NCBI GenBank assembly: GCA_020055645.1
Contig: CM034546.1
Span: 39,494,001 to 39,558,000 of the forward strand
DNA length: 64,000 nt
Source of the DNA: Tomocerus qinae
Taxonomy: Eukaryota > Arthropoda > Collembola > Entomobryomorpha > Tomoceridae
Direction: 5' to 3'
Below, piece after piece: positions 4,806 through 60,462 of the stretch (its first letter is position 1; every line of letters starts with the position of its first letter). The position numbers and the translations under genes are program-made. The notes below the pieces were generated by a model. That model was not told the DNA's origin. It ran no database searches and saw only the letters and a list, made by a program, of their open reading frames with translations.

Positions 4806-4997
4806 GAACCAAGCACGTATCCAGGAATTTGAACTAGGGGGCTCACAAAAACATATTAGTAAAAATGTAACATTTAAGCTAAGCGCAAATTTTTTTTGGA
4901 TTTGTAACCTTTTTTGACAAAAATGTCTTTTTCTGGAAACTTAGGTGCGTGCCAGGGGCCCCCTGTCATCCCTCTTACCCCGGGCCGGGAAATGAGA
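4806..4997. mobile_element. Relic of a hAT-like MITE overlapping the 3' end of IR copy 1
   Basis: The stretch starts with CAAGCACGTATCCAGG, closely matching the start of the complete small element at 21223-21360 (CAGGCACGTATCCA). It runs through a shared middle and ends in a GC-rich tail like that of the second copy. No target duplication was recognised. It includes the stop codon and last residues of the IR copy 1 ORF. A decayed version of the same tract lies downstream of IR copy 2 (about 12320-12380). Confidence 0.45.
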
Positions 4998-6926
4998 CTT
5001 TCTAAACATAGGAATCACACTATTTGCTCTTCGAATATCATTGGCGACGATTGTTAGTTTGCTTAGAAGATTTACGACGTGTATTTTCAGCTTCAATCTA
5101 GAGTGCCACAAGCATTCCAGAAGAAGAGTGATGAATGATCCAAGTAGAAAGTATCCACAAACGAAGAAAATTGTATGGATTTTCATGGACAGACTAATAG
5201 GCAATATCTGAGATTCTTTATGCTTCAGTTTTGAATGCGATTTTATAGATTTCAAATTACGAAAGAAATCCCATTGTTGCTTGAAATATTTTAGAAAACC
5301 TCTCTCTTGCATGACTTGGATATAGGATTTAAATTTAAAACGGTAGCAAAATTTGAATTCATAAGACCTAGGGTCAGCGATGCCTGTTTCCTTCACAGTC
5401 ATGCAAATTTCGTCCGAAGATGCTTCGGATGGCATTAAGGGTACAACGTGTTGACTTTCCTTTGCATAATACAAACTGAATAGCTTCATTGAGAAGTTGG
5501 TCAACATTTTAAATTTGAACATCGAGCGGGGCATTTCATTGTGCTTAGATGTTGCATCGGTTTGCCAATCAAATCTGAAGACACTTGAATTCCTCTTGTC
5601 CAGAATCTTATATTTTTCGAACATTTGTATTCCCCATTGGTTTTCGTCCAAATCTCGCAGTTTGTCTTTCTGTAACATCATCTTAAATCCATGATCCACA
5701 AGATCTTTAAAGTCAGCAAATTGATTTCTGTCTGGCGGAGCAATAATCTCGCTTGTTATCCACGTTTCATATAGATTAGCAATTACAAATCCCATCGACA
5801 CAATTACCAAATACAAAATGTTTCTCTTTTTAGTGGAAACTTCTTGATATAAAAGGACGGCTATTGTGGATACAAAAATAAACTCTAATTTCTTGTAGAA
5901 AGTAGAAATTTTAAAGCCTAAAGCATAAAATGAAATCGGGAATAGCGAAAATATCAGCCACCAGCAATAATCATCAAATGTATTTTGAATCAGAACTGTC
6001 AAAGGGACGTCGAAGAATCGAGGGTTGGCTTCACAGTAATACGGAATGTACTCTTCAAAGTATTCAATAAAAAGAGTTGCATACCAATCTACATTGTAAG
6101 GGTTTGCGGAAGGTGTTAGCAACGTAATGACTCCGCATCGACGATGTTCTTTGTTTAGGTCTTTATATCGCCTTGCATATATGGCAGTAAAGTTCAATCT
6201 TTCAGCCATCAATTCAAAAGCTCTCATTGAATTGAGGCAAATACTGTTTGAACGATATATTTTTATCATTGAATCAAACACTTCTTTACACTTTAGATAT
6301 TTTATAGGGCTTCTGAACTTAAATTCGCCATATAATCCAACAATATGAATGCTATGAAGATTCCCGTTTAAATCATTCCAAACCTTTTCCCATTCTTCTT
6401 CGGGGTCTTCTATTTTAATTGGATGAAGAGATAAGGACTTACTCGTCGGATTGTAGAGAATTGTCGTGTAAATCGAATATTGATTGCCATCTTCCATTCC
6501 AAATATAAAGAGAGGAGCCACCAAAAAACTAGTGACATATGCTCCGAACTTTGGATTCATCCATTTGAATTCATCTTTGATGACGATTATGAATCTCGAA
6601 TCGCGACGATTTATTTCTTTGCCAACGTTGAGAAACCTCAAAGCAGGGTCTGGCTCTATTAGAATATTTACAGTGCAGAAGCTTCTTGAGAGATCCCGTG
6701 GATTTTTTTCATGACGACCGAAGAGAGTTTTATTATAGTCTGATGTTGCCAAGGTCCATGGTTGGCCATTTTGGTTAGACAGGATAAAATCTCTCTGCCA
6801 TTCGGATTGATTGAAAGTATACATGTTAAAATCACAATTACTATAGAACGACAGATTTCGAAAGCAGTTGATGTTGTTTATAATTATAGAAATTAAAAAT
6901 GCTACAATTGGGTACTTGGAATACAT
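4941..6926 (-). CDS. Divergent ionotropic receptor (IR), copy 1
   Basis: A probable ligand-gated cation channel subunit of the variant ionotropic glutamate receptor family, expected in the dendrite membrane of chemosensory neurons. It is a single exon of 661 aa from the ATG at 6926; a GTG six bases upstream is in frame but unlikely to be used. Order: signal peptide (about 1-22); a divergent extracellular region with conserved Cys pairs; ligand-binding lobe S1 (about 195-310); M1 (about 320-338, rich in W and F); a pore-loop/M2-like segment (348-362); M3 (369-398) ending in YETWITSEIIAPP, the counterpart of the iGluR motif after the pore; a second lobe S2; and M4 (about 598-622). The canonical SYTANLAAF signature is absent, as in divergent IRs. 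The last ~22 residues, RG-rich, are missing in copy 2 and appear to come from the transposon relic at 4806-4997. Ligand unknown. Confidence 0.88.
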   Translation of the reverse strand: MYSKYPIVAFLISIIINNINCFRNLSFYSNCDFNMYTFNQSEWQRDFILSNQNGQPWTLATSDYNKTLFGRHEKNPRDLSRSFCTVNILIEPDPALRFLNVGKEINRRDSRFIIVIKDEFKWMNPKFGAYVTSFLVAPLFIFGMEDGNQYSIYTTILYNPTSKSLSLHPIKIEDPEEEWEKVWNDLNGNLHSIHIVGLYGEFKFRSPIKYLKCKEVFDSMIKIYRSNSICLNSMRAFELMAERLNFTAIYARRYKDLNKEHRRCGVITLLTPSANPYNVDWYATLFIEYFEEYIPYYCEANPRFFDVPLTVLIQNTFDDYCWWLIFSLFPISFYALGFKISTFYKKLEFIFVSTIAVLLYQEVSTKKRNILYLVIVSMGFVIANLYETWITSEIIAPPDRNQFADFKDLVDHGFKMMLQKDKLRDLDENQWGIQMFEKYKILDKRNSSVFRFDWQTDATSKHNEMPRSMFKFKMLTNFSMKLFSLYYAKESQHVVPLMPSEASSDEICMTVKETGIADPRSYEFKFCYRFKFKSYIQVMQERGFLKYFKQQWDFFRNLKSIKSHSKLKHKESQILPISLSMKIHTIFFVCGYFLLGSFITLLLECLWHSRLKLKIHVVNLLSKLTIVANDIRRANSVIPMFRKSHFPARGKRDDRGPLART

Positions 6927-6969
6927 TTTCACATTAATTTTGTTCAGTGGTGCGATGTCAAGTAAGAAG

Positions 6970-7075
6970 AATGATGTTCTGTTTTAAATAACGTCGCAGT
7001 ATAATATGTTGTATACCTACAATACCTAGCCAGTGAGGCTCCAACGAAGTAGTCAAGACTGGCAGTTAATAGCAA
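6970..7075 (-). promoter_or_regulatory. Promoter-proximal block shared by the IR paralogues (copy 1)
   Basis: Read on the minus strand, this shares ordered blocks with the DNA just upstream of IR copies 2 and 3: CTGCCAG..CTTGACTAC, then GCCTCAC, then TAxACAACAT, then ACTGCGACGT followed by TATTTAAAAC. Conservation outside coding sequence at the same distance from all three starts suggests the core promoter or 5' leader. The alternative is simply retained duplicated DNA. Confidence 0.6.
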
Positions 7076-7079
7076 AATA

Positions 7080-8340
7080 GCCACAAGGGACAACCAACTA
7101 TAACTTCAGATTATAATTCATGCCATGAAATTCAAAATAGTTCTGAGTTATTTCTTTCAAAGAGGCCTGAAATGGAAATGCAATGCGGAGAATAGTTTCA
7201 AGGGAATGGTAGTATGTAGCATCAGTAGCTTAGCTAATATTTATTTCTTACGGCTATTTGTATCTAAATTTGTAAAGGTGATTTATTTTTGTGGTAATAA
7301 TACAATGTGGAGAAAGAGGAATAATTTTAGTTCTAAATATACAATATCAGTTTTCAGCAGAACACTTGATCTATGTTAAAGTACTGCAATTGTTTATATC
7401 ACTACAAACCTTACATAGTTATTGGTAAAATGAATCAATTAGACAATTTGGTGTAGAAAATTAAAATAAATTACCAAAGGTGAAACTGCTGACCAATAAG
7501 ACACCAAATTACACGCAAATATGTCAATATATGATCACCATTGCGGTTGTCATATTATAACCTTTTAAAATGTGCAAAAGACCAATTTATTTACGTTGAC
7601 AATAAAGATATCAAATTTTCCATGCCCTCCAACTTCAATCTACATTTATTCCTTTTATCCATTCACACAAATTGACAGAGAAATCCTATGAGGCAATAAG
7701 GCAACACAAGACTGATTTTGAAAATATGTGATATGAAGTTATATGCAACATTGTTAAATTTATGTGTGCAGTTTAAAATTTGAATAACAGTGGAGCATAA
7801 ATGAATAGCGCATAATATAAAATAACAGAACTGAAATAATATAAACCTTTAAATGTTTTAAATCATAACATTGCGATAAAATAGTTTTCCTTTTACAATT
7901 CAGTTTTAATTCAATCTGTCTCATTTTTAGGTTTCGTTAGCTTAAAACACGGAAAATATCAATTAAAGTTAATTTTTTGGTTTTCATCAGATATAATTTC
8001 TGGTTATAAAAAGTTTCTAGTTGCTTCGGATTTGATGAACATACCTATTTTCAATACACACTGTCACAAGCAGACAAATGGGAGTTGGTATAAAAGGAAC
8101 AATGATTTCTTATAACTGGGATTCCTTGAAAGTAAATAGCATTTTAGTTTAGCTTTTTTTAGTTTCAAGGAGATGCCTATTTGGTCACTTATGTTTAGAC
8201 TTGCATGGAACGGTCAAATTAGACATAAACAGAAAACATTTTTTTTGAATTTAATGTTATTTAAATTTATTGAATATTTAAAATGTTTTTAAAAGAAATT
8301 CACCCATAAGCAAATTTATTATTGTGAACAATAAAACTAG
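7080..8340. other. IR copy 1 upstream spacer
   Basis: AT-rich, no gene. Scattered blocks match the corresponding spacer of IR copy 2: 7045-7140 matches 15052-15150, and 8040-8130 matches 16500-16600. This shows that the whole region belongs to the duplicated unit. Confidence 0.6.
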
Positions 8341-8344
8341 AATA

Positions 8345-8530
8345 CAGAATAAATTTGGCATTCACGGTATTATTTTGCAGACAGAAGTCACGCAAATAAT
8401 ATTACCTATATGTGGCCTCTAACTAAAGTCAATACGGAACACAACTAATGGAAAAATATATTCATACACGAATACTCACGATAATATATATACATTGGTA
8501 TGATATTGTGATACCGTGTATAGTTCGTGT
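8345..8530 (-). promoter_or_regulatory. IR upstream module B, copy 1
   Basis: This noncoding block matches 17010-17180 (IR copy 2) and, in reverse orientation, 47875-48045 and 48655-48860 (IR copy 3). Read toward the gene, shared words include TATTATCGTGA, GTGTTCCGTATTGA and AATACCGTGAATG. It lies about 1.4-1.6 kb upstream of IR copy 1. Confidence 0.6.
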
Positions 8531-8560
8531 CTAGCAATTACCAGCAACATTTAACATAAT

Positions 8561-8909: not shown

Positions 8910-9132
8910 AACATAATATCAATGTATGTGAAGATTTAAGATCGTGGGAATTGAGTTCATTAGTATTTGAATACCAGTAAAGATAGAAGAATTGAGGGGG
9001 GAATTAGATTGCTAGGTCATAGTTAAATTACCATTCTTCAGTAATTGTGATTACGTACACTACAATAGGTGATGTCCCGGCACAATAAGTAATCCTTTCC
9101 CCTTCATCATTAGCGGTTTCTTATTATCAGGA

Positions 9133-9285
9133 AGCAATCCTATAGAAAATGTTTCCGACAGAAGTATCAAGGTTCATCATCAAATATTCATATCATACGT
9201 GTGTGTCTTGGCTCGGAAGGTTTTGCTCCCATGAAATGAAAAACTTTGCTGATGTCAATCGATTTCTATAAAATACAATGTGAGT
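9133..9285 (-). promoter_or_regulatory. IR upstream module A (CRE-containing), copy 1
   Basis: A conserved ~150-bp noncoding block. Read toward IR copy 1 it carries a CRE-like word (TGATGTCA on the plus strand at 9250-9257, one change from the palindrome TGACGTCA), then TATGATATGAATATTTGATG, then GTCGGAAACATT. It matches 17350-17502 and three blocks between 47505 and 48610. A further short shared block (A', about 9005-9060) lies between A and B. Confidence 0.62.
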
Positions 9286-9609
9286 AATCATACGTTACAG
9301 AGTGAAATAGTGTTGATGGAAGGAATAGAATTTAATAATATTATGTACATTACTAATACTCCGTTAAAGTAGACACATTAGATTCCAAAATATGCAGATT
9401 ATGTACTAAAACCCCCAAATAGATTCCAGTAGCATAAGAGCGCACACTAAGATATACTATTGGTATAAGTTCTTGAGCCCTTCGTTTTATGACTTGTGAA
9501 AATTCAGTATATTGATGAATTTCCATGAATAGGAATGTATATGTGCGCCTTATTGAAGAAGAGAAATGACCAAAATTATTAAGGGGACGGATAAAAATGA
9601 CATGGTGAG

Positions 9610-12388: not shown

Positions 12389-14311
12389 CTAAATACGAAT
12401 CACACGATTTGCTCTTCGAATATCATTGGTAAAAATTGTTAACTTGTTTAGAAGATTGACGACGCGTATTTTCAGCTTCAATCTAGAGTACCACAACCAT
12501 TCCATAAGAAGAGTGATGAATGATCCAAGTAGAAAGTATCCGCAAACGAAGAAAATAGTATGGATTTTCATAGACAGACTAACAGGCAATGTCTCAGATT
12601 CTTCATGCTTTAGCTTTGAATGGGATATTGTATCTTTCAAAATATAAATGAATTCTATTTGTTGCTTGAAATATTTTAGAAAACCTCTTTCTTGCATTAT
12701 TTGAAAATATGATTGGAATTTATAACGATAGCAATCATAGAATGTATAAGACATTGGATTATCGATATCTGTTTCCTTTACAGTCATGCAAATTCCGTCG
12801 GAAGATACTTTAGATGGTATTAAGGGCACAACGTATTGACTTTCCTTTGCATAATACATACCAAATAGTTTCATTGAGAAATTGGTCAACATTTTCCAAT
12901 TGAATGTCCAAGTGTCCAATTTTTGGAGTTCTGCTGTTGCATCGGATTGCCAATCAAATCTAAAGACACTTGAATTCATCTTGTCCACAATTTTATATTT
13001 TTCAAAATATTCGATTCCTTGATCGTCTATACTCCGCCCTATGTCTTTCTCCAATAACAACTTATATCCATTTTCGACGAGATCCTTAAAGTCCACAAAC
13101 TGCTTTCTTTCTGGCGGAGCAATAATCCCACTTGTTATCCACGTTTCATATTGAATATTGACAAGGAACCCAAAGGATACAATTATCAAGTACAAAATGT
13201 TTCTCCTTTTATTGGCAACCTCCTGATTTAAAAGGACGGCTATTGTGGATACAAAAATAAACTCTAATTTCTTGTAGAAAGTAGAAGTTCTAAAGCCTAA
13301 AGCATAAAATGAAATCGGAAATAGCGAAAATATCAGCCACCAGCAATAATCATCAAATGTATTTTGAATCAGAACTGACAAAGGGATTTCCACCAATCGA
13401 GGATTGGCTTCACAGTAATATGGAATCAACTCTTTAAAGTATTCAATGAAAAGATTTATATACCATTCCAGAATATAAGGGTTTATGTATGACGCTAACA
13501 TCCCAATAGTTCCACATCGACGATGTTCTGTTTTAAGATCGTCATATCGCCTTGCATATGTGGCAGTGAAGTTCAATCTTTCAGCCATCAATTCAACAGC
13601 TCTTACTGATTTAAAACAATTTCTTTTTAAACGGTTAGTTTTCACGATTGAATAGAGCTCCATTTTACACTCAGGCAATTGTTTAGGGCTAGTGAACGAA
13701 AATTCTCCATATAGGCTTCCAATATGAAGCCCATGAAGATTGCCGTTTAAATCATTCCAAACTCTTTCCCATTCTGCTTCAGAGTATTTTGTTTCAATTG
13801 GGTGAAGAGTTAATGACTTACCCTTTGGATTGTAGAGAATTGTCATGTAAATCGAATATTTGTTTCCAACTTTCATTGCCAATATAAACAGGGGAGCTAC
13901 TAATTCATAAAGGAGGTTTGATTGCCAATCTGGATTCATCCATTTCAATTCATCTTTGATGACGATTATGAATCTCGAATCCCGACGATTTATTTCTTTT
14001 CCAAAATGAATGACTAGCGTCTTTAAGTCAGGATCTGGTTCCATTAGAATATTTACAGTACAGAAACTTCTAGAGAGATCCCGTGAATTTTGTTCATTTC
14101 GACCGAAGAGAGTTTTATTATATTTGGATGTTGCCAAGGTCCATGGTTGGCCATTTTGGTTAGACAGGATGAAATCTGTCTGCCATTCGGATTGATTGAA
14201 AGTAATCATGTTAAAATCACAATTACAATAGAACGACAAATTTCGAAAGCAATTGATGTTGTTTATAATTATAGAAATAAAAAATGGCACAATTGAATGC
14301 TTGGAATACAT
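12389..14311 (-). CDS. Divergent ionotropic receptor (IR), copy 2
   Basis: Intronless paralogue of IR copy 1, 640 aa from the ATG at 14311. In-frame codons extend upstream to a TTG but contain no other ATG, and the chosen Met aligns with that of copy 1. It has the same architecture: signal peptide (SIVPFFISIIINN), Cys-containing extracellular part, S1 lobe with the shared RAVELMAERLNFTA and RRYDDL words, M1 starting DYCWWLIFSLF, pore-loop/M2, M3 ending YETWITSGIIAPP, S2 and a C-terminal M4 (FFVCGYFLLGSFITLL). It ends RRANRVIRI without the extension of copy 1. No frame break was seen, so it is probably functional. Its ligand-binding lobe differs from copies 1 and 3 mainly around the segment before M1. 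Confidence 0.88.
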   Translation of the reverse strand: MYSKHSIVPFFISIIINNINCFRNLSFYCNCDFNMITFNQSEWQTDFILSNQNGQPWTLATSKYNKTLFGRNEQNSRDLSRSFCTVNILMEPDPDLKTLVIHFGKEINRRDSRFIIVIKDELKWMNPDWQSNLLYELVAPLFILAMKVGNKYSIYMTILYNPKGKSLTLHPIETKYSEAEWERVWNDLNGNLHGLHIGSLYGEFSFTSPKQLPECKMELYSIVKTNRLKRNCFKSVRAVELMAERLNFTATYARRYDDLKTEHRRCGTIGMLASYINPYILEWYINLFIEYFKELIPYYCEANPRLVEIPLSVLIQNTFDDYCWWLIFSLFPISFYALGFRTSTFYKKLEFIFVSTIAVLLNQEVANKRRNILYLIIVSFGFLVNIQYETWITSGIIAPPERKQFVDFKDLVENGYKLLLEKDIGRSIDDQGIEYFEKYKIVDKMNSSVFRFDWQSDATAELQKLDTWTFNWKMLTNFSMKLFGMYYAKESQYVVPLIPSKVSSDGICMTVKETDIDNPMSYTFYDCYRYKFQSYFQIMQERGFLKYFKQQIEFIYILKDTISHSKLKHEESETLPVSLSMKIHTIFFVCGYFLLGSFITLLMEWLWYSRLKLKIRVVNLLNKLTIFTNDIRRANRVIRI

Positions 14312-14374
14312 TTTAACACGAATTTTACTGTAATTTCTTCTCGAGTGAACGATCAAAAGTAAGAGAAAGAATGT

Positions 14375-14442
14375 TTAGTTTTAAAGTACGTCGTATTAAA
14401 TGTTGTATACCTAGGCAGTGAGACACCAACGGAGTAGTCAAG
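14375..14442 (-). promoter_or_regulatory. Promoter-proximal block shared by the IR paralogues (copy 2)
   Basis: This matches the block upstream of IR copies 1 and 3 (TAGGTATACAACATTTAATA, ACGACGTACTTTAAAAC, GTCTCACTGCC, all read toward the gene). The block is interrupted at its distal edge by the MITE at 14443-15040; the continuation CTGCCAGC..GCTATTAG is found beyond it at about 15052. Confidence 0.55.
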
Positions 14443-15040: not shown

Positions 15041-15249
15041 TAGGGAAGGGAAGGCTGGCAGCTAATAGCAAAATAGCATCCAGCGATAACCAACTGTAAA
15101 CGGTAACCTGAAATTATACATCATATACCATGAAATTCAGAATAGTTCTCACCAGTATTGTTTTTAATCGGTTTCCCTATTACTTGTTCATAGTTCAAAG
15201 TATAAGGCTTATTATAGGTAATGACAAAAAAGACATACCGTAAACATCG

Positions 15250-15548: not shown

Positions 15549-17000
15549 GTACTGCTGCTGTATTCAACAACAAATAAATTCACAAGCAAAACTCAGCTAA
15601 CATATTACTGCGACTGTTCCTTCCCAATTAGTCGTTAGTTGGCGATTTAAAGTTAGACTTAGTAATGTCTTTAACACACACAGCCAAAAATTTGCTTTCT
15701 GCGCCAATATTTATTTTTTCCAGGTCATTCGTAATTAAAATTTGTAAAGAAGTTTAATTTTTTGTAATAACAAATTTACAGTTCATAAACATACATCTGT
15801 TTGCAGTAGAACATTTGTCTGATTACTTGTGTTTATAATTAGTGTCAATAAAAATCAATTAGATACCCTCGTATATACAGGGCCGCAGCCAGAAAAAATT
15901 TTGGGAGGGGCACCGAGAAAAAACTACCAAATTTTTGCGCTTCGCGAGAAAATTTTAGCGATTTTTTGCAATTTTAGACAAAAATTTCTTTATTTTTTCG
16001 ATTTCTCGGGGGGGGGGGGGCACGCGACCCGGTGCCCACCCTCGCTGCGACGTATATAGGGAATTGGAATGTATCAAACTGTCAAAGGTCAAACTGATCA
16101 ATATAATATCACTATGACCACAGCTACAGTTGCCAAATAATCTTTTAGAATTTCGAGGTGACTAATTTATTATTCTTATTTAAATTAGAAATGAAAAACA
16201 AACTTTTATTTTCCAATTCCCCTGAATTGTGGAAAATAGAGCAAAAATTGCGCTTTATTTCAGTTTTTGGGCTTACTTTAACACTAATTGCCACTACTTC
16301 CTATTTCCCACAATTTTCCGCAATTCCTGGATGTCCAAAAAAGTGGGAAGGGAAATGGAAATATCCGAAACTCTGTCAAACATATCATTCCGCCCTGTCG
16401 ATGGAAGAACTTTTTTTAATTTTCGTCAGATACTACTTCCTGTCTCAGAAACAATTTCATTTACTTGGGTGTAAAAATCTTCTAATTGCATCTAATTTGG
16501 CATACATACCAATTTTCCACAAACACTGTAACATGCAGACAAATGAGAGTTGGGCTACAAGGAATATGGAAAATTATTTCCTGTAACTGGGTTTACATAA
16601 AGGCGGATAGCTTTTGTAGTCGCCTTTGGTGAAGAGTCTCCTATTTGGTCACTTATCTTTACTCTACATAAACGTAAAGTGGGACATGCGCATGAAATTC
16701 TTTCACTATTCTTGTATAAACGTTTGTATATATGTCCGTAATATTTTGTAATTAATGAGAGGACTAGACTATCAGTACTGAGTCTAATCAACGGTCTATG
16801 AAATTCAAGCCAATGCGCAGTCGCTAGAAATTTACTGATTTCAACATTTCCTAGCACACTTTATGTGTTAGGATTCAACTAGTCGTAAATAAAACTTGCG
16901 TGGAACGACCGAATAAGATATAAAAAAAGATTACATTTTTTGAAATTAAATGTTTTAAAAGACATTAACCAATAAAGAAATAGATGTTTAAAATTAAAGC
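15549..17000. other. IR copy 2 upstream spacer
   Basis: Mostly AT-rich without genes. It holds the MITE at 15878-16050 and blocks matching the IR copy 1 spacer. Short ORFs at 16158-16586 and 16555-16857 fall in these duplicated noncoding blocks and have no protein-like features. Confidence 0.5.
15878..16050. mobile_element. Small hAT-like MITE with 8-bp target duplication
   Basis: 173 bp flanked by a perfect 8-bp repeat CGTATATA (15870-15877, 16051-16058). It starts CAGGGCCGCAGCCAG and ends CTCGCTGCGA, sharing a degenerate CGCAGC inverted word. It contains a poly-G run near 16009-16020. A fragment of the same start (CCACAGCCAGAAAAAAA) lies inside the minisatellite at about 58405. The target repeat is AT-rich, so chance is possible. 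Confidence 0.6.
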
Positions 17001-17009
17001 TAGAGTACA

Positions 17010-17180
17010 GAGTGATTTTGACATTCACGGTATTATTGTCCGGACAAAAGTCACGCAAATAATTTTACCTCTATGTATGGCCTCTAACTACAATCAATAC
17101 GGAACACAACTTATTCGGAAATATACACAAATACTCACGATAATATATAAATTGACATGATATTATGATGCCACTTGTAT
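17010..17180 (-). promoter_or_regulatory. IR upstream module B, copy 2
   Basis: Counterpart of 8345-8530, upstream of IR copy 2 and collinear with it. It keeps the ATTCACGGTATTATTG and TACGGAACACAACTTATT words on the plus strand. Confidence 0.6.
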
Positions 17181-17349
17181 TAGGTTGTATCCAGCACTAA
17201 CCAGCATTGTAATCATTTATTCCCAGTGAAGGCGGAAGGCTTGAGGGGATAATTAGATTTCACGATTGCAGATAAATTATCATTATTCAGTAATTGTGAT
17301 CTAACTCCTTCAGGTCCCTCACACTACAATACTTCATTATTATCAGGAA

Positions 17350-17502
17350 CCAATGTATTAGACAATGTTTCTGACAGAAGTATCTTTCAAGGTTATCATC
17401 AAAATATTCATATCATACGTATGTGTTTAGGCTTGGCAGTTTATGCTTCTGAGAAATGAAGAATTTTGCTGACGTCATTCGGTTTGTACAAAATACAATA
17501 TG
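17350..17502 (-). promoter_or_regulatory. IR upstream module A (CRE-containing), copy 2
   Basis: Counterpart of 9133-9285, with a perfect CRE palindrome TGACGTCA at 17470-17477 and the ATATTCATATCATACG word. The A' block lies at about 17240-17300 between A and B. Confidence 0.62.
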
Positions 17503-17579
17503 TGTCCTACTTTACAGCCTGAAGTAACTTGGTTGAAATGTAGAAAAATGTAACAGAATATTGTACATTACTATATACC

Positions 17580-29123: not shown

Positions 29124-29279
29124 ATACTTTAGATGTTTACGGCTAAGTCAATAATCAATATTTAAATGCAAGAATGCCAATAAATATTAAATAATGCTAT
29201 TTTTGCCACAAGGCAGAACAGTTTGTTGTTTGTTCCACAATACCAGGACGTTTTCTCTTGAACATTATCCCAAGGAAGG

Positions 29280-45543: not shown

Positions 45544-46319
45544 ACAAACTTTAGTTAATACAGTAGACATATTATGTATAAGCTGATCCACGTTTAAAAT
45601 TGTCTACACAGAGTAGTAAATTATAGCTCATTTTTTTCAGGAACCTATTAATATTTCACGGCCATCAAAAAAATCAAGATAGCAAGCAATACTCTACGAA
45701 ATTATTGTTGAGCATTTTCAATTGTGAATACAGGTAATTTTATTGTATTCGTAAATAGTAATTGCCTGTACTTACCATGTATATGTTTCTACGCGACAAT
45801 TATTTTGATTGTAGTGGGAGCTCTCTGCTCTGTAAATACATGCACAGTAGTAATTATAATTTAACATCCATTAGGTGTGAGCGCATTTTACCATCTTATT
45901 TTCGTTCGTATCGAGGGATAAAAGGTTTCGCTTAGGCATATCGTTTTTAAACTTGGAATTTTAAAAGGAACATTAATTGAACGTTTTATGCACTATGGTT
46001 ACTTTAATGCTAGTTGTTCATTGTAATTCAAGCTTTAAAAGGCTTTAATTAAGTATTTAGATAGACAGTCAAATGGAGAAACTGGTAAGAGGAACGTAGA
46101 AGGTGAAAAAATAATTTGTTTTATCACTGTTATAATATTAAACTGTTCACTTAGAATAGAATGTCTAATGATGCTTACACGCCCTGAATTATCCGCTTTT
46201 AATTCAGCATTCCCAATTATCAGGCTATAAAATCAGAAACAAAATATTATGATGCGAATTACTGCATGGATGTCCAAATAAAAGTCCACTTATGACGTAC
46301 CTTGAAGAAGCATATTATA

Positions 46320-46680: not shown

Positions 46681-47500
46681 AGTTTTAATTAATTTTTGCA
46701 AATGAAACAATCTAAATAACTTAGGGAACCATAATCATCCTAATACCCATTTCATTTTTTATCGCTGCAGTTAATTGTTAAATAGGGTGCCCTTGCCCTG
46801 CCCTCGACATTTAGTTAAGTAAATAAGAAGGCCGTGGGTTTTTGATCAGTTTTCCATGGTCTGTGACCGGGAGTAGATTTCTTATCAGATACCGCTATTT
46901 CCAGTCGATTTTATTTAAAGGCTAGTTCTGATATATAATTTTTGTGTTAGTATGGAATGATTTTGTAAATGCTATGAATGTAACTGCTTACCATGCATTT
47001 ATTAAAAATTACTTACTAAGTACAAGTAAAATTTGCACCATTTATCATCATAAGTGCATAATAAGCATAGCTAAGTGCGTTAAGAAAATCTAGTTATACA
47101 AATGAATCATTCGGGAAAATAGAGTCTTTTGAGTCACAAATCTAACATCATCACTTGGAACTTCATTGACAGGATCCTTGGCCAATGATAATGTTAGTCA
47201 GCTCTTTATGAAATTAATGGATATGAATGGACGGTAATGAAGCCCAAATACAGAGATATTCTTTTATAAACGGATTCAATAAAATTTTATTAGCTGTCTT
47301 AATATAAGACTTTGGACAGCTGTAAAACGTACCCTTCGTTAGGCGGGCTGTGTTAATATTAGCGGCGTCTTTCATCCAAAGTTAATGTAACCAAAAAACA
47401 CTAATCCATGCATTAGTTGGAGACAATAGTAATACATACAAAAGTATATATAAATCTATCTTTCACCTAACTTGTTATGATTTAGCAGACACTACTACAA
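46681..47500. other. Intergenic, nothing recognised
   Basis: AT-rich between the zinc-finger fragment and the IR upstream modules. Confidence 0.4.
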
Positions 47501-47504
47501 ATTT

Positions 47505-47645
47505 GTTATAGAAAATCATTGACGTCAGCAAAGTTGTTTATTTCTCAGGAAAACAACCATCAGAGCCAAAACACACAGTATGATATGAATATTTGATGAT
47601 ATAAACTTCATACATTTGCCAGAAACATTGTCTGTAGAATTTGTT
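47505..47645 (+). promoter_or_regulatory. IR upstream module A, copy 3a
   Basis: Perfect CRE palindrome TGACGTCA at 47520-47527, then AGCAAAGTT, GAGCCAAAACACACA, TATGATATGAATATTTGATG and GAAACATTGTCT. Same word order as at 9133 and 17350, in the orientation facing IR copy 3. The A' block follows at 47690-47755. Confidence 0.65.
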
Positions 47646-47874
47646 CTTATTAATAAATAAAGGAGCATTGATTAAGTGGAATGGACGCGAGTTAGATCAC
47701 AATTACTGGAGAATAATGATTTAAATATCTCCGATCTGGTAATTTTCTACCATCTTTTTCCCTTTACAACTAATGACTATTTATATAGTAATAATAAACT
47801 GAATTTACAGAATTCGTCTATTGATTTTATGTAAAATGATGTTAATTAATTGCTGGAACACATATCCTTTACGT

Positions 47875-48045
47875 CATGTCATGATGGCATTTATATCATA
47901 TATTATCGTGAATATTAGTGTCTGAATTTGTTTTTCCATAGGAATAGTGTATAGGTATAGTATAATGTATCTGCTGTAGTTAGAAATCATAAAGTAGTTC
48001 AATTCTTTGAGTTACATTTAAAAGGACAATAATATCATGTATGTC
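47875..48045 (+). promoter_or_regulatory. IR upstream module B, copy 3a
   Basis: Shares TATTATCGTGA, GTGTCTGAATTTGTTTTTCC, CTGTAGTTAG and GGACAATAATA with copy 3b. It is homologous to 8345-8530 and 17010-17180 read in reverse. Confidence 0.6.
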
Positions 48046-48092
48046 AAAATCGATCTTCATCATATTCATGTGTTATATTAAACCAATACACA

Positions 48093-48232
48093 TTATTGTA
48101 TAGAAAACTGATTGACGTCAGCAATGTTTTCTTTCTTTGGGAGCAGAAACTGCCAAAACACGCAACAAGTATGATATTAATATTAAATTTGATACGTAGG
48201 TCTGTCGGAAACATTATCTAGAGCTAATGAAG
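48093..48232 (+). promoter_or_regulatory. IR upstream module A, copy 3b
   Basis: CRE palindrome TGACGTCA at 48113-48120, followed by AGCAATGTTTTCTTTCTTTG, GCCAAAACACGCA and GTCGGAAACATTATCTA. Confidence 0.65.
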
Positions 48233-48489
48233 TAGAAAAATATTACTTATGACTTTTGAACATCATGTTTAATAGTCAATGTATTAGGTCACTTGAGTTA
48301 AAACAATAACTGACAACTAATTTTTACCCACAATTTTAAAATGCTGCATTCAAAATTATCAAGTTTGGTTATCAAAATGTAGTCCAAATGAGAGCAAATA
48401 ATTCAAAATCTTTCTCACTACATTGGAAATAATATTAAATCTCCTTATACTGTATCTGTACGGAACAAACTAAAGTGGTACATACATTA

Positions 48490-48610
48490 TATTTTGTATA
48501 AATCGATTAGCGATTGACGTCAGCAATGTTTTTCATTTCTTAGGACACATCACGCAGTCAAGCCAAAGCACACAATAATTATATGAATATTTGAAGATAG
48601 TCTAGATACT
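48490..48610 (+). promoter_or_regulatory. IR upstream module A, copy 3c
   Basis: CRE palindrome TGACGTCA at 48515-48522, followed by AGCAATGTTTTTCATTTCTT, GCCAAAGCACACA and ATGAATATTTGAAGATA. Confidence 0.65.
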
Positions 48611-48654
48611 TTAAGGAGAGTATTAATTGCTATAGTAGACAATTAACTATACAC

Positions 48655-48860
48655 CATGCCTTTATGACACATAAAATTCATATCGTGACATTCGTGAGCT
48701 TTTGTGTCTGAATTTGTTTTTCCATAAGTTGTGTTCTATAATGTCTACTGTAGTTAGGACTAGCTAGAAGTGATAAAGTAGTTCAATTCTTTGCGCGATA
48801 TTTATCTGGACAATAATACCGTGAATGTCAAAATATAGCCTTGTACTCTAACTTTTCTAT
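48655..48860 (+). promoter_or_regulatory. IR upstream module B, copy 3b
   Basis: Repeats module B words (GTGTCTGAATTTGTTTTTCC, AAGTAGTTCAATTCTTTG, AATACCGTGAATGTCAAAAT, TGTACTCTA). The last two are shared with the reverse complement of 16995-17050. Confidence 0.62.
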
Positions 48861-48869
48861 TTACAAATC

Positions 48870-51430
48870 TACTTTTTAACGGTTAATACTATCTTTCAAA
48901 AGTAACATTCACAAAAATTCAAAAAATAGAATATAACAAAATTTGTATTTTATTTCAAAATATCCATGCATGTTTAAAAAAAGTCACCGAATAGACAGCT
49001 CTGTGCCAACGTGACGAAAAATAAATAGCATTCCGCTTATAAGGGAGACTTGAGCTGCAGCATTTGGTGGCAGTAAAACAACTTTCTATCATCGACAGGG
49101 TGGAAGGAAATTTCGGTGTTGTTTTTGGTAGTGGGTATACAACCTATTAACCTATATATTGTGTGAAAAATTTAGTAATTCAATGATGAAAATGTATTGG
49201 TATTGCTATTTTAATATGGAAAAAATGGAATTCTTATGTCACCAACAGTAATTTAAGATTTTTAGAAAGAAAAAATTTTAGCAACCAGTAGTGATTTGTG
49301 TAGAAAACCGTGTGAATTTTACTGGCAGTTAAGAAAATAATATATGGTACTAATAGGAGTGGCAGGGGTAAGTAAAGAGGGTAAGTAAAGGGTTAAACAA
49401 TGTATTGAGGTATTCGGAAGGTAAGATAGGGGAGACTGAGTTTTATGGTTGTCGAATGGGTGTAGTGTAAGAAGTGTACGAAGTGTACGAAATAAAATTA
49501 ACTTTTCTGATTTCAAAAATACCCAAAAGGAAACTTTTGTCACTAAGTGATACAAATTTTTTGACGTAGAGAATAAGCTCTCTTAAATGATAGCCGATGC
49601 TTATTGAGGCCATCATTTTGAATGTTTTTCAACCATGAGTACTACATTAAACTATTAAACATCACTGAATTCCCACTATTAATTACATAAGTTAAGACTG
49701 CAAACACTTACTCGGTGGTTGTTTATGAACTATAGAAATTGCCATTTAAAAACCTCATTTGATGCATCGGGAAAAATAATTTTAGAAAAATAACGACCAT
49801 AACGATGGTCATGAAATAATAAAGATGTATCATAAAAATCATTAAAAAAATCATAAAATCATAAAAAATCATAAAATCAAAGCTTTATAGTCAAGTTACA
49901 TAAGCCGAAGCTTTTCTCCAATAGCAGACTTTATAGTAGATTTATAGTTAATTTTCCAAGTAATTTACGTATTCCGTAATTGCACCGAGCCGAATAGGTA
50001 ACTTCTTGGAGTTTCCATACGTCACGTTGTTTATAGCGCTAAGATTTATCAAGGCTAGGGCCGGAGTTGTTACTTATATGTTAGATTTAAACAGTCTGTA
50101 GTCAATCTAATCACCCATCCAAACATCGCTCAGTGTAGCTTAACCTCAGCTTCCAGTGGAATGCTTTGGATTTATATTCCTCAACGTGATTTTATACAGC
50201 CGTCTAAACGTTCGGACACTATTTCCAGTCTCCCCTACTATTGCAACTTTTACAACTATAATATGTAAATGTCTAAAAACGCAAATGAGGATGTAGGTAA
50301 GAGGAAACAGTCAACGTTCCGTTATCTAGAAATCTGAATGAAGGTATGGGATTAGCTGCATTTTTCATTTGTTTACCCCAAAAGTTTCATTATAGTAAAA
50401 GCTGTACCGCGATCCATTTTGACTGTTGAAGGTGGAAGAAAATGTCCTGCTAAATTGAAATGTGTAAAAGCAAAAGACAGCAATTTGTGACCTATTAACT
50501 GCAAATAATGTCATAATTCCGCGAGCTGTGTTAATGTACCTTTAGAGTAAAAATAATGATGACTCTAATAGCTTATCATTATCAACTACTTCATTTACTT
50601 GATTATTGAATTGACATTATTTAATTTTAATTGTTCACCTATGTTTCTTTCCTTAATTTTCTAATGCATACAGATAAAAAAATGATGTTTGCAATGACGA
50701 AATATTTACATTTTCAATGCAACGTCCACCATTATTCGTCTCCCAATACTCTTAGTAACATGCATTATTCCCTTAACTAACAGAAAAATTCACACGGTTT
50801 TCTATAACAAACCCATACAAAGTACGACTGTTTACTAATTTCATGCCATACAAAATTCCTGTGTACCTTTAACTTTAACTTGTGTAACTTTAATGTGCAA
50901 CGTTTTGATATAATTTAATGTAATTTATTACATTTAAGGCTTTTAATCATTTAGTACTATTACGATAATATAATACAGATTATCCATACATGTTACCAAT
51001 TACAATGATGTTGATATGTTAAAGTAATTTGACGATATCGTTATGCACTTATTCGAAACGACAAATGAGAATTGTGGGTTGAAGGGAATGTGGAAAAATT
51101 GAATGATGATATCTAAGTTAGATTAACCGTTATGGAAATGTATGTTTTTATTTAGAACAAAAATTGCACAACTTTAGTTTGATTGTATTACAACCACCAA
51201 AGAATTAAACTTTCCAGATTTAAATCACTAGTGAAATAAAACTTAAGGTTCGATGAAACGTTTTCTCGCATTGTATTTCCAAAAACGAGCTAAAAATTTT
51301 GGAAACACCATTTACTGCAACATTAAAGCAATATGGGTAAACCGATAAAAAGTAATAATAATAGGAACTATTCTTAATATCATGGTATATATTATGATTT
51401 GAGGTTATAGCTGGAAGTCACCGGTTGCTA
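48870..51430. other. AT-rich spacer upstream of IR copy 3
   Basis: No gene. A short tandem of ATCATAAAA units lies at about 49825-49880. Other frames have no protein-like character. Confidence 0.45.
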
Positions 51431-51439
51431 TTTTGTTAA

Positions 51440-51540
51440 ACTGCCAGCCTGGACTACCTCAATGGTGCCTCACACTCACAGGCTAGATATACATATGCAA
51501 CATTTACTGCGACGTTATTCATTTAAAACTAAATAATATT
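51440..51540 (+). promoter_or_regulatory. Promoter-proximal block shared by the IR paralogues (copy 3)
   Basis: CTGCCAGCCTGGACTACCTC, TGCCTCACAC, GGCTAGATATACATATGCAA and TACTGCGACGTTATT appear in the same order and spacing as upstream of IR copies 1 and 2, and end ~50 bp before the ATG. ATATACATA could serve as a TATA-like element. Confidence 0.62.
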
Positions 51541-51588
51541 CTAATTCTTACTTTGAATCCTTCACCGTCTACGACATAAGTGAGCAAA

Positions 51589-53571
51589 ATGCGTGTTAAA
51601 TTGTATTCCCTGTATCCAATTATAGCATTTTTAATTTCCATAATTACAAACAACGTCAACAGCTTTCGAAATTTTTCGTTCTATAGTAATTGTGATTTTA
51701 ACATGATTACTTTCCATCAATCCGAATGGCAGACAGATTTCATCCTGTCTAACCAAAATGGCCAACCATGGACCTTGGCAACATCAAAATATAATAAAAC
51801 TCTCTTCGGTCGTCATGAAGGTAATCCACGGGATCTCTCCAGAAGTTTCTGCACTGTAAATATCCTTATGAAGCCAGACCATAATTTAATAACATATCTA
51901 CTATACTATTTTGTTGGGAAAGAAATAAATCGTCGCGATTCGAGATTTATAATCATTATCAAAGGTGAATTGAAATGGATAAATACAAATGGACGACAGG
52001 CCTCATACCTCATTGAACATTTGGTGGCTCCTCTCTTTATATTTGCATTGAGAGTTGGAAACGAATACTCAATTTACACGACAATTCTCTACAATCCGAA
52101 CAGTAGGTCGTTAACTCTTCATCCAATTGAAGCAGAAGATTTTGAAGAAGAATGGGAAAGAGTTTGGAATAATTTAAACGGAAATCTTCATGGCATTCAA
52201 ATTAATGGAATACATAGTCATTTTTCGTTCGTTGGTCATAGAGAATTGCCAGAGTGTAAAATGGCGCTCTATTCAATAGTAAAAACTAACAGTTTAAAAG
52301 GTGATTGTTGGTATTCAGTGAGAGCTGTTGAATTGATGGCTGAAAGATTGAACTTCACTGCAGTATATGCAAGGCGATATGAAGATATAAATGATGAACA
52401 TCGTCGATGTGGAGTCATTAAGATGTTAAGACCTTACACTATCACTGATATTGTACAATGGCATGAAACTCGTTTCATTGAATACTTTAAAGAGTTGATT
52501 CCATATTACTGTGAAGCCAACCCTCGATTGGTGGACATCCCTTTGACAGTTCTGATTCAAAATACATTTGATGATTATTGCTGGTGGCTGATATTTTCGT
52601 TATTCCCGATTTCATTTTATGCTTTAGGCTTTAGAATTTCTACTTTCTACAAGAAATTAGAGTTTATTTTTGTATCCACAATAGCCGTCCTTTTAAATCA
52701 GGATGTTTCCAATAAAAGGAGAAACATTTTGTATTTGGTAATTGTGTCCATGGGATTTGTAATTGCTACTCAATATGAAACGTGGATAACAAGCGAGATT
52801 ATTGCTCCGCCAGACAGAAAGCAATTTAAAAACTTTAAAGATCTCGTGGAAAATGGATATAAGTTGTTGTTGCAGACAGACAGACGGCGGGGTAAGTTCG
52901 AACATGGATTTGAATTTTTTGAAAAGTATAAAATTGTGGACAAGATGAATTCAAGTGTCTTCAGATTTGATTGGCAATCCGATGCAACATCTGAGCATCT
53001 TAAAATGACTTACTGGACATTCTCTTGGACAATGTTGACCAACTTCTCAAAGAAACTATTTGATATTTATGCAAAGGAAAGTCAATACATTGTGCCCTTA
53101 ATACCATCTAAACTATCTTCTGACGGAATTTGCACGACTGTAAAAGAAACAGATATCGCTATTCCATGGTCTTATAACTTCTTTAAGTGCTACCGTTATA
53201 AATTCCAATCATATTTTCATGTCATGCAAGAGAGAGGCTTTCTAGAATATTTCAAGCAACAATACGAGTTCATTCTTGATTTGCAAGATATAATATCCCA
53301 TTCAAAACTGAAGCATAAAGAATCACTGACATTGCCTATTAGTCTGTTCATGAAAATCCATACTATTTTCTTCGTTTGTGGGTACTTTCTACTTGGATCA
53401 TTCATCACTCTTTTTCTGGAATGGCTGTGGCACTGTAGATTGACGCTATATCTAAATGTTGTTAGTCTTCTGAAGAAAATAAAAATCGCCAAAGATGTTC
53501 GAAGAGAAAAACGTGTGGTTCCTGCCGATGGCTTAAAAATCGATTTGGGTAAGACACACATTATTGCTTAA
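51589..53571 (+). CDS. Divergent ionotropic receptor (IR), copy 3
   Basis: Intronless, 660 aa from the ATG at 51589 (a GTG nine bases earlier is in frame). It has the same plan as copies 1 and 2: signal peptide (YPIIAFLISIITNNVNS), the conserved FYSNCDFNMITF and SNQNGQPWTLATS words, S1 lobe, M1 (CWWLIFSLFPISFYALGF), pore-loop/M2, M3 ending YETWITSEIIAPP, S2, and M4 (FFVCGYFLLGSFITLF). The C-terminus (RREKRVVPADGLKIDLGKTH) differs from the other copies. It lies 37 kb away on the opposite strand, so the family spread by duplication with inversion. Frame intact; presumed functional chemoreceptor subunit with unknown ligand. Confidence 0.88.
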   Translation: MRVKLYSLYPIIAFLISIITNNVNSFRNFSFYSNCDFNMITFHQSEWQTDFILSNQNGQPWTLATSKYNKTLFGRHEGNPRDLSRSFCTVNILMKPDHNLITYLLYYFVGKEINRRDSRFIIIIKGELKWINTNGRQASYLIEHLVAPLFIFALRVGNEYSIYTTILYNPNSRSLTLHPIEAEDFEEEWERVWNNLNGNLHGIQINGIHSHFSFVGHRELPECKMALYSIVKTNSLKGDCWYSVRAVELMAERLNFTAVYARRYEDINDEHRRCGVIKMLRPYTITDIVQWHETRFIEYFKELIPYYCEANPRLVDIPLTVLIQNTFDDYCWWLIFSLFPISFYALGFRISTFYKKLEFIFVSTIAVLLNQDVSNKRRNILYLVIVSMGFVIATQYETWITSEIIAPPDRKQFKNFKDLVENGYKLLLQTDRRRGKFEHGFEFFEKYKIVDKMNSSVFRFDWQSDATSEHLKMTYWTFSWTMLTNFSKKLFDIYAKESQYIVPLIPSKLSSDGICTTVKETDIAIPWSYNFFKCYRYKFQSYFHVMQERGFLEYFKQQYEFILDLQDIISHSKLKHKESLTLPISLFMKIHTIFFVCGYFLLGSFITLFLEWLWHCRLTLYLNVVSLLKKIKIAKDVRREKRVVPADGLKIDLGKTHIIA

Positions 53572-54284: not shown

Positions 54285-55360
54285 GGATACAGTGCACCGA
54301 ATAAAATTGTTTTTTTTAATTTTAAGTGTATCTTGCATTTTTGTAATGCCCCAGACAATATTAAGTTGTCACTTTGTGTAAAACAAGATTATATTTGTAT
54401 TCGCCTTCTCGGTTTATGTAACCTATATTTATAGTTTTACCCAATGTAGAAGAAAATAAAAATACTAACAAAAAAGTGTTATACTAATATCTGGCAATCA
54501 GTACTCGTATTGACAAAATTTTTTCCCAAAAGCAGCACAACACAGGCATAGGAAATACTGAGTATGAAAGTACAGCTTAGAAATGACAACTACTAATGTA
54601 ACAAATGTAAAGAAAAGCAGAGCACACACTACAAATATATTTTATTATGCTAACCCGCAGTATAGTAGAAATACAGGAGACATAATAATATCGTATTTAA
54701 GTTTGGAATTGCGTAGGTGTAAATATCAAGATAACCTCCAAGACTATGAAATTTTAATAATGTAAATTTATTGTTATCGGAAATAGTAATTTGGGAATTA
54801 CAATTGAATCATGTAGATATATTTTAACGCGACAATTATTTTGATTGTAGTGGGAGCTCTCTACTCTGTAAAATATAACCACAGTATTAATAAAAATTTA
54901 ACATCCACAAAGTGTAAGCGCATTTTACGATCTTATTTTCGTATTCGTATCGAGGGTCGAGAGATGCTAGGTTTCGTATAGGCTTAGCGCTTGTAAACTC
55001 GGGATTTTAAAAGAAACACTAATTGAAAGTTTTAAGCGCTATGGTTACTTTAAACAATAGTCTTTCATTGTAATTCAAGATTTAGAAGGCTGTCATTAAG
55101 AATTTAGATAGACAGTCAAAACGGAGAAACTGGTAAGAAGATTGTACAAGGGGAAAAAAATTTTTGTTCCACCTCTTTTTATATTCAGTTATAATATAAT
55201 TCTTCATTTAGAATAAAATGCCTTATGATGCTTACACGCCCTGAATTATTCGCTTTAACTTTAGCATTCCCAATTATCAGGCTATACAATCAGAAACAAA
55301 ATATTATGATGCGAATTACTGCATGCATGTCCAAATAAAAGTCCACATATAAAGAACCTA
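54285..55360 (-). repeat. Segmental duplication, orphan GR promoter (copy 2)
   Basis: Duplicate of 44815-46320, but the GR coding region that should follow at its left end is absent. The sequence diverges where the start codon would be (near 54285). TTGATTGTAGTGGGAGCTCT and ACAAAATATTATGATGCGAA are retained. Confidence 0.72.
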
Positions 55361-57950: not shown

Positions 57951-58009
57951 GGGTAGGTAGAAAATAGAAATAACGAGGACGATTAAAGTAGTTATAGCTA
58001 ATTAAAATA

Positions 58010-59150
58010 ACAGAGCTACTAAAAAAGATGAGGTAAAAATGACGTGAATATTTAAAATAAAGAGATTATTTAAAATGACAGGCATGATTAAAACGACGAG
58101 GTTATTTAAAATGACAGGCATGATTAAAACGACGAGGTTATTTAAAATGACGAGATTTAAAAAAATGACATTTATAGATTTAAAACAACGAGGTTATTCA
58201 AAATGAAGGGGTGATTCTAAACGACGAAATTATTTAAAACGACGGGGTTATTTAGAATGACGTCTATTTAAAATGTGGGGTCATTTACAATGACGACCAT
58301 TTAAAATGTGGGGTTATTTAAAATGACGTCTATTTAAAATGTGGGGTCTTTTAAAATGACGTCTATTTTAAATGACGGGGTCTTTTAAAATGATGGTCAT
58401 TTACCGGGGCCACAGCCAGAAAAAAAATTGGGAAGTGACAGGGTTATTTAAATTAAAATGATGGCGTAATTTAAAATTACGGGGTTATTTAAATTAAAAT
58501 AATGGCGTAATTTAAAATTACGGGGTTATTTAAATTAAAATGATGGCGTAATTTAAAATTACGGGGTTATTTAAATTAAAATGATTGCGTAATTTGAAAG
58601 TGACAGGGTTATTTAAATTAAAATGATGGCGTAATTTAAAATGACGGGGTTATTTAAATTAAAATGATGGCGTAATTTAAAATGACGGGTCTATTTAAAT
58701 TAAAATGATGGCGTAATTTAAAATGACGGGGTTATTTAAATTAAAATGATGGCGTAATTTAAAATGACGTGGTTATTTAAATTAAAATGATGGCGTAATT
58801 TAAAATGACGGGGTTATTTAAATTAAAATGATGGCGTAATTTAAAATGACGGGGTTATTTAAATTAAAATGATGGCGTAATTTAAAATGACGTGGTTATT
58901 TAAGTTAAAATGATGGCGTAATTTAAAATGACGCGGTTATTGAAAATGACGGGGTTATTGAAAATGACGGGTTTACTAAAAATGTCGGGGTTATTTAAAG
59001 TGACGGGGTTATTGAAATTAACGGGGCTATTTAAAATGACGGTGGGATTTAAAACGACGGGATTGTTTAAAATGACGTCTCTTTACAATGATGGGGTAAT
59101 TAAAATTACGGGGTGATATAAATTGACGGGGGGATTTAAAATTATAAATT
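58010..59150. repeat. Minisatellite with 41-bp dimeric unit
   Basis: The whole stretch is built on an ~18-20-bp word like TTTAAAATGACGGGGTTA. From about 58440 to 58930 it is organised as roughly a dozen copies of a 41-bp unit in which ATTTAAATTAAAATGATGGC alternates with GTAATTTAAAATGACGGGGT. Flanking copies are simpler and more degenerate. A fragment of the MITE family seen at 15878 is embedded at about 58400-58435. A frame at 58928-59116 is only the repeat read through. Confidence 0.92.
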
Positions 59151-59727: not shown

Positions 59728-60462
59728 TTATAAAGTTTTTCTCGATTCCCGACAATAAATCTTCATATGTTTGGCCAAAACATATTTGGTTGAAACTGCT
59801 TTTCCACAAATTTCACATTTGTAAGGTTTTTCACCCGTATGAGTTTCGCTGTGAGTTGTCAAAGTCCATTTAAATGTAAATTCTTTTCCACACACTTGAC
59901 ATTTATAAGGTTTGTCACCAGTATGAGTAGAGCGATGTCTTTTCAAACGCCATCTAATTGCATATTGTTTTCCACAAATCTCACATTTATAAGGTTTCCC
60001 ACTAAAGTGAATCCTGTTATGAATTTTCAAATTCCCATTACATGCAAATGCTTTTCCACAGACTTTACATTGGTAAGGTTTTTCACCAGTATGAAGCTTA
60101 ATAATATGCTTTGTCAAGCACACTTTCGTTGCAAATTGCTTTCCACAAATACCACATTTATAAGATTTCTCACTAGTAGCAGGATTGGAATGAGTTGTCA
60201 AATCATTTTCTGTTGAAATTCCTTGCTTATTTTTCATAATATGTCTTTCCGTTTTCTCTATAATATTTCTGCGGATACTAATGTTGGAAATAGGCTGTAG
60301 TTCTTCTGAATGAATCACCAATTCTTGCTCTGTCGAAAATGTTTCATTACATACATGACACTGAAAAGTTTTGTTTGTGGGTTGATTTTCATTACAGATC
60401 TGTTCTTCGGAATTATTGGCTGAGTTAGTTACAGATTGTGTTAAACCTGGTGTTGTCGACAC
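59728..60462 (-). CDS. C2H2 zinc-finger protein, 3' exon (5' end uncertain)
   Basis: An open frame of about 244 codons on the minus strand with one separate N-terminal finger (FQCHVCNETFSTEQELVIH) and five C-terminal fingers joined by TGEKPY-type linkers (HTGEKPYQCKVCGKAFACN, HFSGKPYKCEICGKQYAIR, HTGDKPYKCQVCGKEF, HTGEKPYKCEICGKAV). The last finger ends H-x4-C rather than H. Likely a nuclear DNA-binding regulator. The frame has no ATG upstream of the first finger (it opens with GTG at 60462, and the next Met is residue 75), so an upstream exon is expected. A possible acceptor ACACCAG lies near 60445. A truncated tail copy is at 46320-46680. Confidence 0.78.
   Translation of the reverse strand: MSTTPGLTQSVTNSANNSEEQICNENQPTNKTFQCHVCNETFSTEQELVIHSEELQPISNISIRRNIIEKTERHIMKNKQGISTENDLTTHSNPATSEKSYKCGICGKQFATKVCLTKHIIKLHTGEKPYQCKVCGKAFACNGNLKIHNRIHFSGKPYKCEICGKQYAIRWRLKRHRSTHTGDKPYKCQVCGKEFTFKWTLTTHSETHTGEKPYKCEICGKAVSTKYVLAKHMKIYCRESRKTL

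Follow-up and report, generated by a model that had tools for sequence, protein, structure and literature searches.

Our results revealed that two noncoding sequence blocks, A and B, which lie upstream of three receptor-like genes (IR1, IR2 and IR3) in a stretch of DNA of 64 kb (hereafter, the window), are, judging by their alignments, the ends of a single element of ~0.6 kb. The original prediction had treated these blocks as belonging to the three IR genes; we find that the element is not peculiar to them and lies upstream of many genes of a family that numbers hundreds. We propose that A-B is probably a distal cis-regulatory element (enhancer) inherited with the ancestral cassette of this receptor-like (IR-like) family, which is intronless and very large.

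Results

The window and its three receptor-like frames

The window (C1:39494001-39558000, 33% GC, from an assembly of 334 Mb) contains three open frames of 661-680 codons, stop to stop, that share 69-74% protein identity (Table 1). Pfam and PDB sequence searches gave no protein identity for these frames, and an AlphaFold2 model was unusable (mean pLDDT 27.5). Specifically, the label IR given in the original prediction gained no backing from 17 family members, none of which matched a ligand-gated channel Pfam family at E up to 1, or from PDB, where no sequence matched. The description IR-like, as used here, reflects that earlier reading together with hydrophobic stretches, found near residue 580 in five of five proteins and at residues 370-394 in three of five, and is meant as a putative assignment. 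Evidence for gene conversion among the three frames was mixed, with run tests over all sites giving p values from 0.0002 to 0.44 and none below 0.05 on synonymous codons.

Upstream of the frames, the ~230 bp directly before the start codon stand out as conserved across the 28 loci compared. The ~0.6 kb that interrupts the IR2 leader (Table 1) is absent from IR1 and IR3. A decayed exon, kin to a receptor-like gene at 36.7-37.3 kb, lies just distal to A at both IR1 (9353-9724, minus strand) and IR2 (17847-17986, minus strand); the grounds for calling it gustatory-receptor-like are weak, and a separate frame at 29.3 kb matches 7tm_7 below the cut-off (E 0.0067). Between IR1 and IR2 lies the C-terminal relic of a hAT transposase (9873-10466, minus strand; Dimer_Tnp_hAT, E 5.1e-14). 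Elsewhere, the window holds a direct repeat of ~0.96 kb (23265-24216 and 28163-29124, 98%) and an inverted repeat of ~0.3 kb (31413-31706 and 32504-32210, 97%), each a recent duplication or a mobile element, as well as a repeat, 81% identical, that flanks IR3 (45734-46302 and 54762-55359), where no frame of 120 codons is listed. The stretch at 58000-59150 is internally repeated, and a minus-strand frame at 59728-60483 has, by eye, the look of a C2H2 zinc finger.

Table 1. Receptor-like frames, promoters and element copies in the window, in order of position.
Feature	Position	Strand	Remarks
IR1 open frame, stop to stop	4941..6983	-	Receptor-like, intronless; no Pfam match
IR1 proximal promoter/leader, part	7055..7144	-	Conserved
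B end, IR1	8330..8540	-	Profile; exact AATACCGTGAATG at 8359
A-B connecting stretch, IR1	8974..9051	-	BLAST
A end, IR1	9107..9300	-	Profile match; core TGACATCA
IR2 open frame, stop to stop	12389..14374	-	Intronless
IR2 proximal promoter	15051..15149	-	Separated from leader by ~0.6 kb (14442-15051)
B end, IR2	16993..17200	-	Profile; exact core at 17022
A-B connecting stretch, IR2	17223..17300	-	BLAST
A end, IR2	17325..17517	-	Profile; TGACGTCA at 17470
A end, IR3 first copy	47467..47671	+	Profile; TGACGTCA at 47520
A-B connecting stretch homologue, IR3	47696..47728		
B end, IR3 first copy	47850..48072	+	Profile; core changed
A end, IR3 second copy	48085..48224	+	Profile; TGACGTCA at 48113
A end, IR3 third copy	48469..48639	+	Profile; TGACGTCA at 48515
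B end, IR3 second copy	48620..48858	+	Profile; exact core at 48815
IR3 proximal promoter/leader	51326..51580	+	Conserved
IR3 open frame, stop to stop	51580..53571	+	Intronless

A and B as one element

Self-BLAST of the window and profile searches recovered five A and four B copies upstream of IR1, IR2 and IR3, where the original prediction had placed them, and the two profiles found no further copy inside the 64 kb. As also predicted, the order of the blocks and their orientation toward the gene are alike at all three loci, which are collinear in self-comparison, and the CRE palindrome TGACGTCA is intact in four of the five A copies, the IR1 copy reading TGACATCA. All four occurrences of TGACGTCA in the window fall within A, against a shuffle mean of 0.54, and none of 100 shuffles reached four. 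The proposed B core, AATACCGTGAATG, is exact in three of the four B blocks but differs in the first B of IR3.

The sequence between A and B is homologous among the three loci too (Table 1) and is probably what had been called A'; at IR2, A and B are almost contiguous, while IR1 has additional sequence in between. We aligned 13 units chosen because their A and B lie close together, namely IR2, IR3 and 11 units from 10 of the 20 loci sampled by the B core. Identity runs at 0.59-0.77 across the whole of A-B and drops to 0.33-0.53 in the flanks: it is 0.52 over the 40 bases that precede A, 0.40-0.49 over the 160 that follow B, and 0.33-0.53 at greater distances. It is because the A-B middle is homologous, and because identity falls off outside, that we read A and B as one unit. 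These 13 units gave no coding signal, with no codon periodicity (p 0.71 and 0.12) and a longest open stretch of 41-72 codons, and the window held no Rfam or tRNA match; a coding exon was ruled out on the absent periodicity and a structured RNA or tRNA on the absent match. We also considered, by eye on an alignment of A copies, a core promoter within A, and rejected it: the spacing of the TATA-like stretch and the CRE is not constant, with 7 extra bases in the third A of IR3.

Occurrence across the receptor family

Beyond the window, the exact B core AATACCGTGAATG has 59 genome matches (5 of them one tandem array on C3) versus 12 for the reversed control, and the CRE 13-mer TTGACGTCAGCAA has 111 versus 9. 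The receptor family itself yielded 1583 candidates at first look, and the best 67 of these 1583, which were scored, are near full length and 69-77% identical (the query itself aside), some with internal stops. A coding 20-mer of the family has 196 exact genome copies and a degenerate receptor signature has 369 matches, with none for either in the control. The source of this 20-mer is a run of codons (321-337 of the IR coding sequence, ~52549-52599 in IR3) in which 15 conserved degenerate codons each use a single codon over 16 aligned copies (permutation p 0.0002), a pattern that may reflect synonymous constraint or a conversion hot spot.

Sampling from both directions linked the element to the family. 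The first 20 of 52 B-core regions were each represented by 7.6 kb of sequence. The B profile matches at 17 of these loci, and A precedes B at 13, in one case as a fragment of 60 bases. At 15, a receptor frame in the same orientation, whole or in pieces, follows within the 7.6 kb. Three loci (L009, L011 and L013) carry the bare B 13-mer and match neither profile, and two (L016 and L018) have A and B and lack a frame within 7.6 kb, L018 having a coding tag just beyond that stretch. Conversely, 8 of 12 receptor genes picked without regard to the element carry A and/or B, oriented with the gene, within 6.0 kb upstream (four with A and B, two with A only, two with B only, and four with none in that distance). 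These genes were taken from the best 67 of 1583, and the sample is biased against our claim because none has an exact B core. One locus, L029, additionally has two A copies that point away from its gene.

Placement relative to genes was assessed on C1 against a set of at least 261 receptor genes pooled from the matches listed. A co-oriented gene start lies within 10 kb of 50 of 97 CRE cores (those on C1 among the first 100 of 111 places), with 9 reversed and a mean of 9.3 (maximum 18) for shifted positions, and within 10 kb of 30 of 46 B cores, with 2 reversed and a shifted mean of 2.5 (maximum 8). The original prediction had named modules at many sites unrelated to IR genes as the finding that would speak against it. 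This is not what we see at C1 14-38.74 Mb, the stretch with a complete list of exact coding tags, where 25 of 32 exact CRE cores lie within 10 kb of a gene start in the same orientation (4 reversed; shifted 4.0, maximum 10), but at C1 7-11.2 Mb placement is within chance, at 11 of 32 (4 reversed; shifted mean 4.1, maximum 11). Within the latter stretch, at ~10.19-10.32 Mb, several cores point away from listed genes. Several exact A cores there are reversed, 1.5-6.3 kb upstream of receptor genes, and three more lie ~3,050 bases from a receptor signature on the far side of minus-strand genes (positions obtained by subtraction); a segmental repeat may account for this exception to the prevailing orientation.

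IR3 has three A and two B copies upstream, and the original prediction had regarded it as the one amplified locus. Multiple copies before a gene or core were, in fact, found at several other loci: two A and two B at L024, two B each at L023, L028 and L016, three B matches (one of 49 bases) at L022, and two A at L042. From these loci besides IR3, extra copies are, as far as the matches indicate, common in the family.

Conserved cores and a distant cluster

Core statistics were drawn from 27 A copies, after matches with fewer than 90 aligned columns (5 of 32 for A and 1 of 34 for B) had been dropped. The best-kept 8-mers of A are ATGAATAT (0.79 of 24 copies) and its neighbours, against a mean over 8-mers of 0.335, followed by TGTAGAAA (0.65 of 23) and by CGTCAGCA and TGACGTCA (0.64 of 25 each). 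The palindrome TGACGTCA thus occurs in 16 of 25 copies, ranking 11 of 157 8-mers, and is changed in 9; one of the 16 counted as intact, at L033, is interrupted by an insertion, leaving no contiguous site in that A. Conservation of the B core is partly a matter of choice because most B copies were selected by that core. We read ATTGACGTCAGCAAA in A as a putative CREB/ATF site and equally as a putative half MARE, which fits as well as the CRE because the flanking GCAA is kept too, and ATATGAATATTTGA presumably fits a POU-type site. Taken as sequence motifs, the candidate enhancer cores read as bZIP-like and AT-rich.

A can also be recognised in a distant cluster. When searched with the A profile, four 701-base stretches at exact CRE cores there reach 82, 36, 28 and 23 bits, whereas none of 400 controls containing the CRE 13-mer exceeds 14.3 bits. 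With that 13-mer masked, L043 remains clear (47 bits), L042 is marginal (E 0.0056), and L041 and L044 are not significant. B was not found in the four stretches. In three of the four, CCAAAACAC follows the CRE, and AATATTTGAT or a one-base variant is present in all four, both motifs having been picked after the alignments had been inspected.

Retention and substitution

Pairwise comparison of 23 loci (253 pairs) shows homology of the element in 226 pairs and of the proximal promoter in 223, versus 64 for the 0.4-4 kb spacer between them. The pairs are non-independent, and the 226 is partly due to selection, as each locus had been picked for having a B match ahead of its gene. The flank beyond A is homologous in 6 of 136 pairs (17 loci). 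A softly scored alignment of the spacer was discarded as too permissive. Together with its presence at 8 of 12 unselected genes and the missing coding signal, this is the behaviour expected of an enhancer, that is, of noncoding sequence kept at a distance while the spacer turns over.

Substitution rates tell a different story, as the modules are not slower than neutral sites. The median ratio to four-fold sites is 1.10 for A (65 pairs) and 1.62 for B (115 pairs), and the median substitution values are 0.276 for A, 0.399 for B, 0.373 for the promoter and 0.264 for four-fold sites. Between IR1 and IR2, the modules differ at 107 of 570 sites (18.8%) and the other alignable upstream pieces at 103 of 464 (22.2%; p 0.19). 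Of the ten pieces, two in the promoter, one of 22 bases and one that is not collinear were set aside for this comparison, which flatters the spacer because BLAST recovers its best preserved parts. Evolution no slower than the flanking spacer, the other outcome that the original prediction had set against itself, is thus what we observe relative to four-fold sites and to the alignable spacer of IR1 and IR2, but most of the spacer between loci no longer aligns. We regard retention, boundaries and cores as evidence of function of moderate strength.

Discussion

The proposal of a shared distal enhancer stands in part. The element is noncoding, shared across the family, upstream, mostly gene-facing and kept while most of the adjacent spacer has been lost, but it does not evolve more slowly, and the step from these properties to an enhancer is one that we infer. 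In the cassette as we envisage it, the element would be followed by a freely changing spacer of ~0.4-4 kb, the ~230-bp proximal promoter and the coding frame. Transcription factors would bind the short A cores TATTTTGTAGAAA, ATTGACGTCAGCAAA and ATATGAATATTTGA and the B core AATACCGTGAATGTCAAA, and the bound factors would regulate the promoter in a single cell type or state. IR3 would owe its extra copies to local duplication of the element, as would several other loci. More tentatively, A-B could be a composite distal enhancer, about one per gene, that was carried along as the family grew explosively to hundreds. Each new receptor would then have had this remote switch from the outset, and expression might be tuned by the number of A cores, which ranges from one to three per gene.

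Passive carriage is a less probable account, in which a cassette was duplicated often and fairly recently and A-B is an old piece of spacer that insertions and deletions have so far left unbroken. It is consistent with the rate of A, which is about that of four-fold sites, and the faster rate of B, with the ordinary spacer and dead exon that IR1 and IR2 share at similar identity, and with the spacer homology that persists in 64 of 253 pairs. However, boundaries are identical at many loci while the longer element-promoter spacer is mostly lost (at loci chosen for B), cores within A are conserved, and A is still recognisable in the distant cluster. Because the loci on which retention was gauged had been chosen for a B match, we have lowered the weight of the enhancer and raised that of passive carriage.

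It is also improbable, and more so, that A-B is transcribed. It would then act as an alternative promoter whose first exon is noncoding, or as an exon preceded by a 3' splice site (TTGAC branch-like site, pyrimidine tract and YAG in A), and would either be joined to the receptor transcript or yield a separate RNA. In favour of this, TTGACGTCAGCAAAG, a pyrimidine-rich stretch and CTCAG succeed one another in several copies, including three of the four distant stretches, but YAG is missing in IR1 and in the second A of IR3, no conserved donor was seen by eye in A or B, coding signal is absent, and a separate promoter-like region of ~230 bp adjoins the frame. The mostly 5', gene-facing position and the short conserved cores resembling factor sites make it very unlikely that A-B is a boundary, recombination or gene-conversion element aiding the expansion or homogeneity of clusters, despite the size and clustering of the family, the clustered site patterns among the three frames, and distances among A copies that are unlinked to those among frames (weakly linked for B; r 0.27, p 0.03). 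A mobile or satellite repeat, repeatedly inserted upstream of family genes, hardly seems credible: copies are many and some are tandem, but they face the gene in 50 versus 9 cases for the CRE and 30 versus 2 for B, a prevailing orientation that argues against a transposable element, and the homologous flanks at IR1 and IR2 fit descent with the gene.

As an enhancer, A-B would be comparable in kind to receptor-gene elements known in other animals, of which the nematode and Drosophila ones sit closer to their genes. The mammalian olfactory-receptor enhancers (the H element and the Greek islands) are distal and serve clustered receptor genes, but they are few and act at long range, whereas A-B occurs roughly once per gene. 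The reference for the E-box promoter element of Caenorhabditis elegans chemoreceptor families is reportedly McCarroll et al. 2005. As described in PMC2576165, this E-box is found in 25-50% of the srh, sri, sre and srz families and drives expression in one sensory neuron type; it resembles A-B in being one short cis element common to a large part of big chemoreceptor families, but it is a single motif scored from -200 to -20 relative to the start codon, whereas A-B is a composite of ~0.6 kb, 0.4-4 kb from the promoter. In Drosophila, the Or genes are reported to combine Dyad-1, CTA(N)9TAA, with gene-specific elements (PMC2430909) and to carry clusters of Acj6/Pdm3 Hox/Pou motifs (PMC4356613), so that receptor choice depends on upstream elements, both common ones and ones particular to a gene, some of which take POU-type input (PMC2430909, PMC4356613). 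Those elements lie in the first ~0.5-1 kb and were defined by reporter tests, with no CRE core in the descriptions consulted, whereas A-B is defined by sequence. The dipluran Campodea augens, with 2,424 IR genes, mostly intronless, offers a likeness in its very large, mostly intronless receptor family, and the term promoter does not occur in the main text of its report (PMC6938034). At the level of titles and abstract openings, our literature search returned no description of a remote element that IR genes have in common.

These findings bear on how each of several hundred recent receptor duplicates comes to be expressed correctly. The remote element seems to have accompanied the genes even though the spacer in between is otherwise scrambled, and the family thereby offers dozens of natural replicates, varying in cores, copy number and distance, that can be compared with the expression of each gene.
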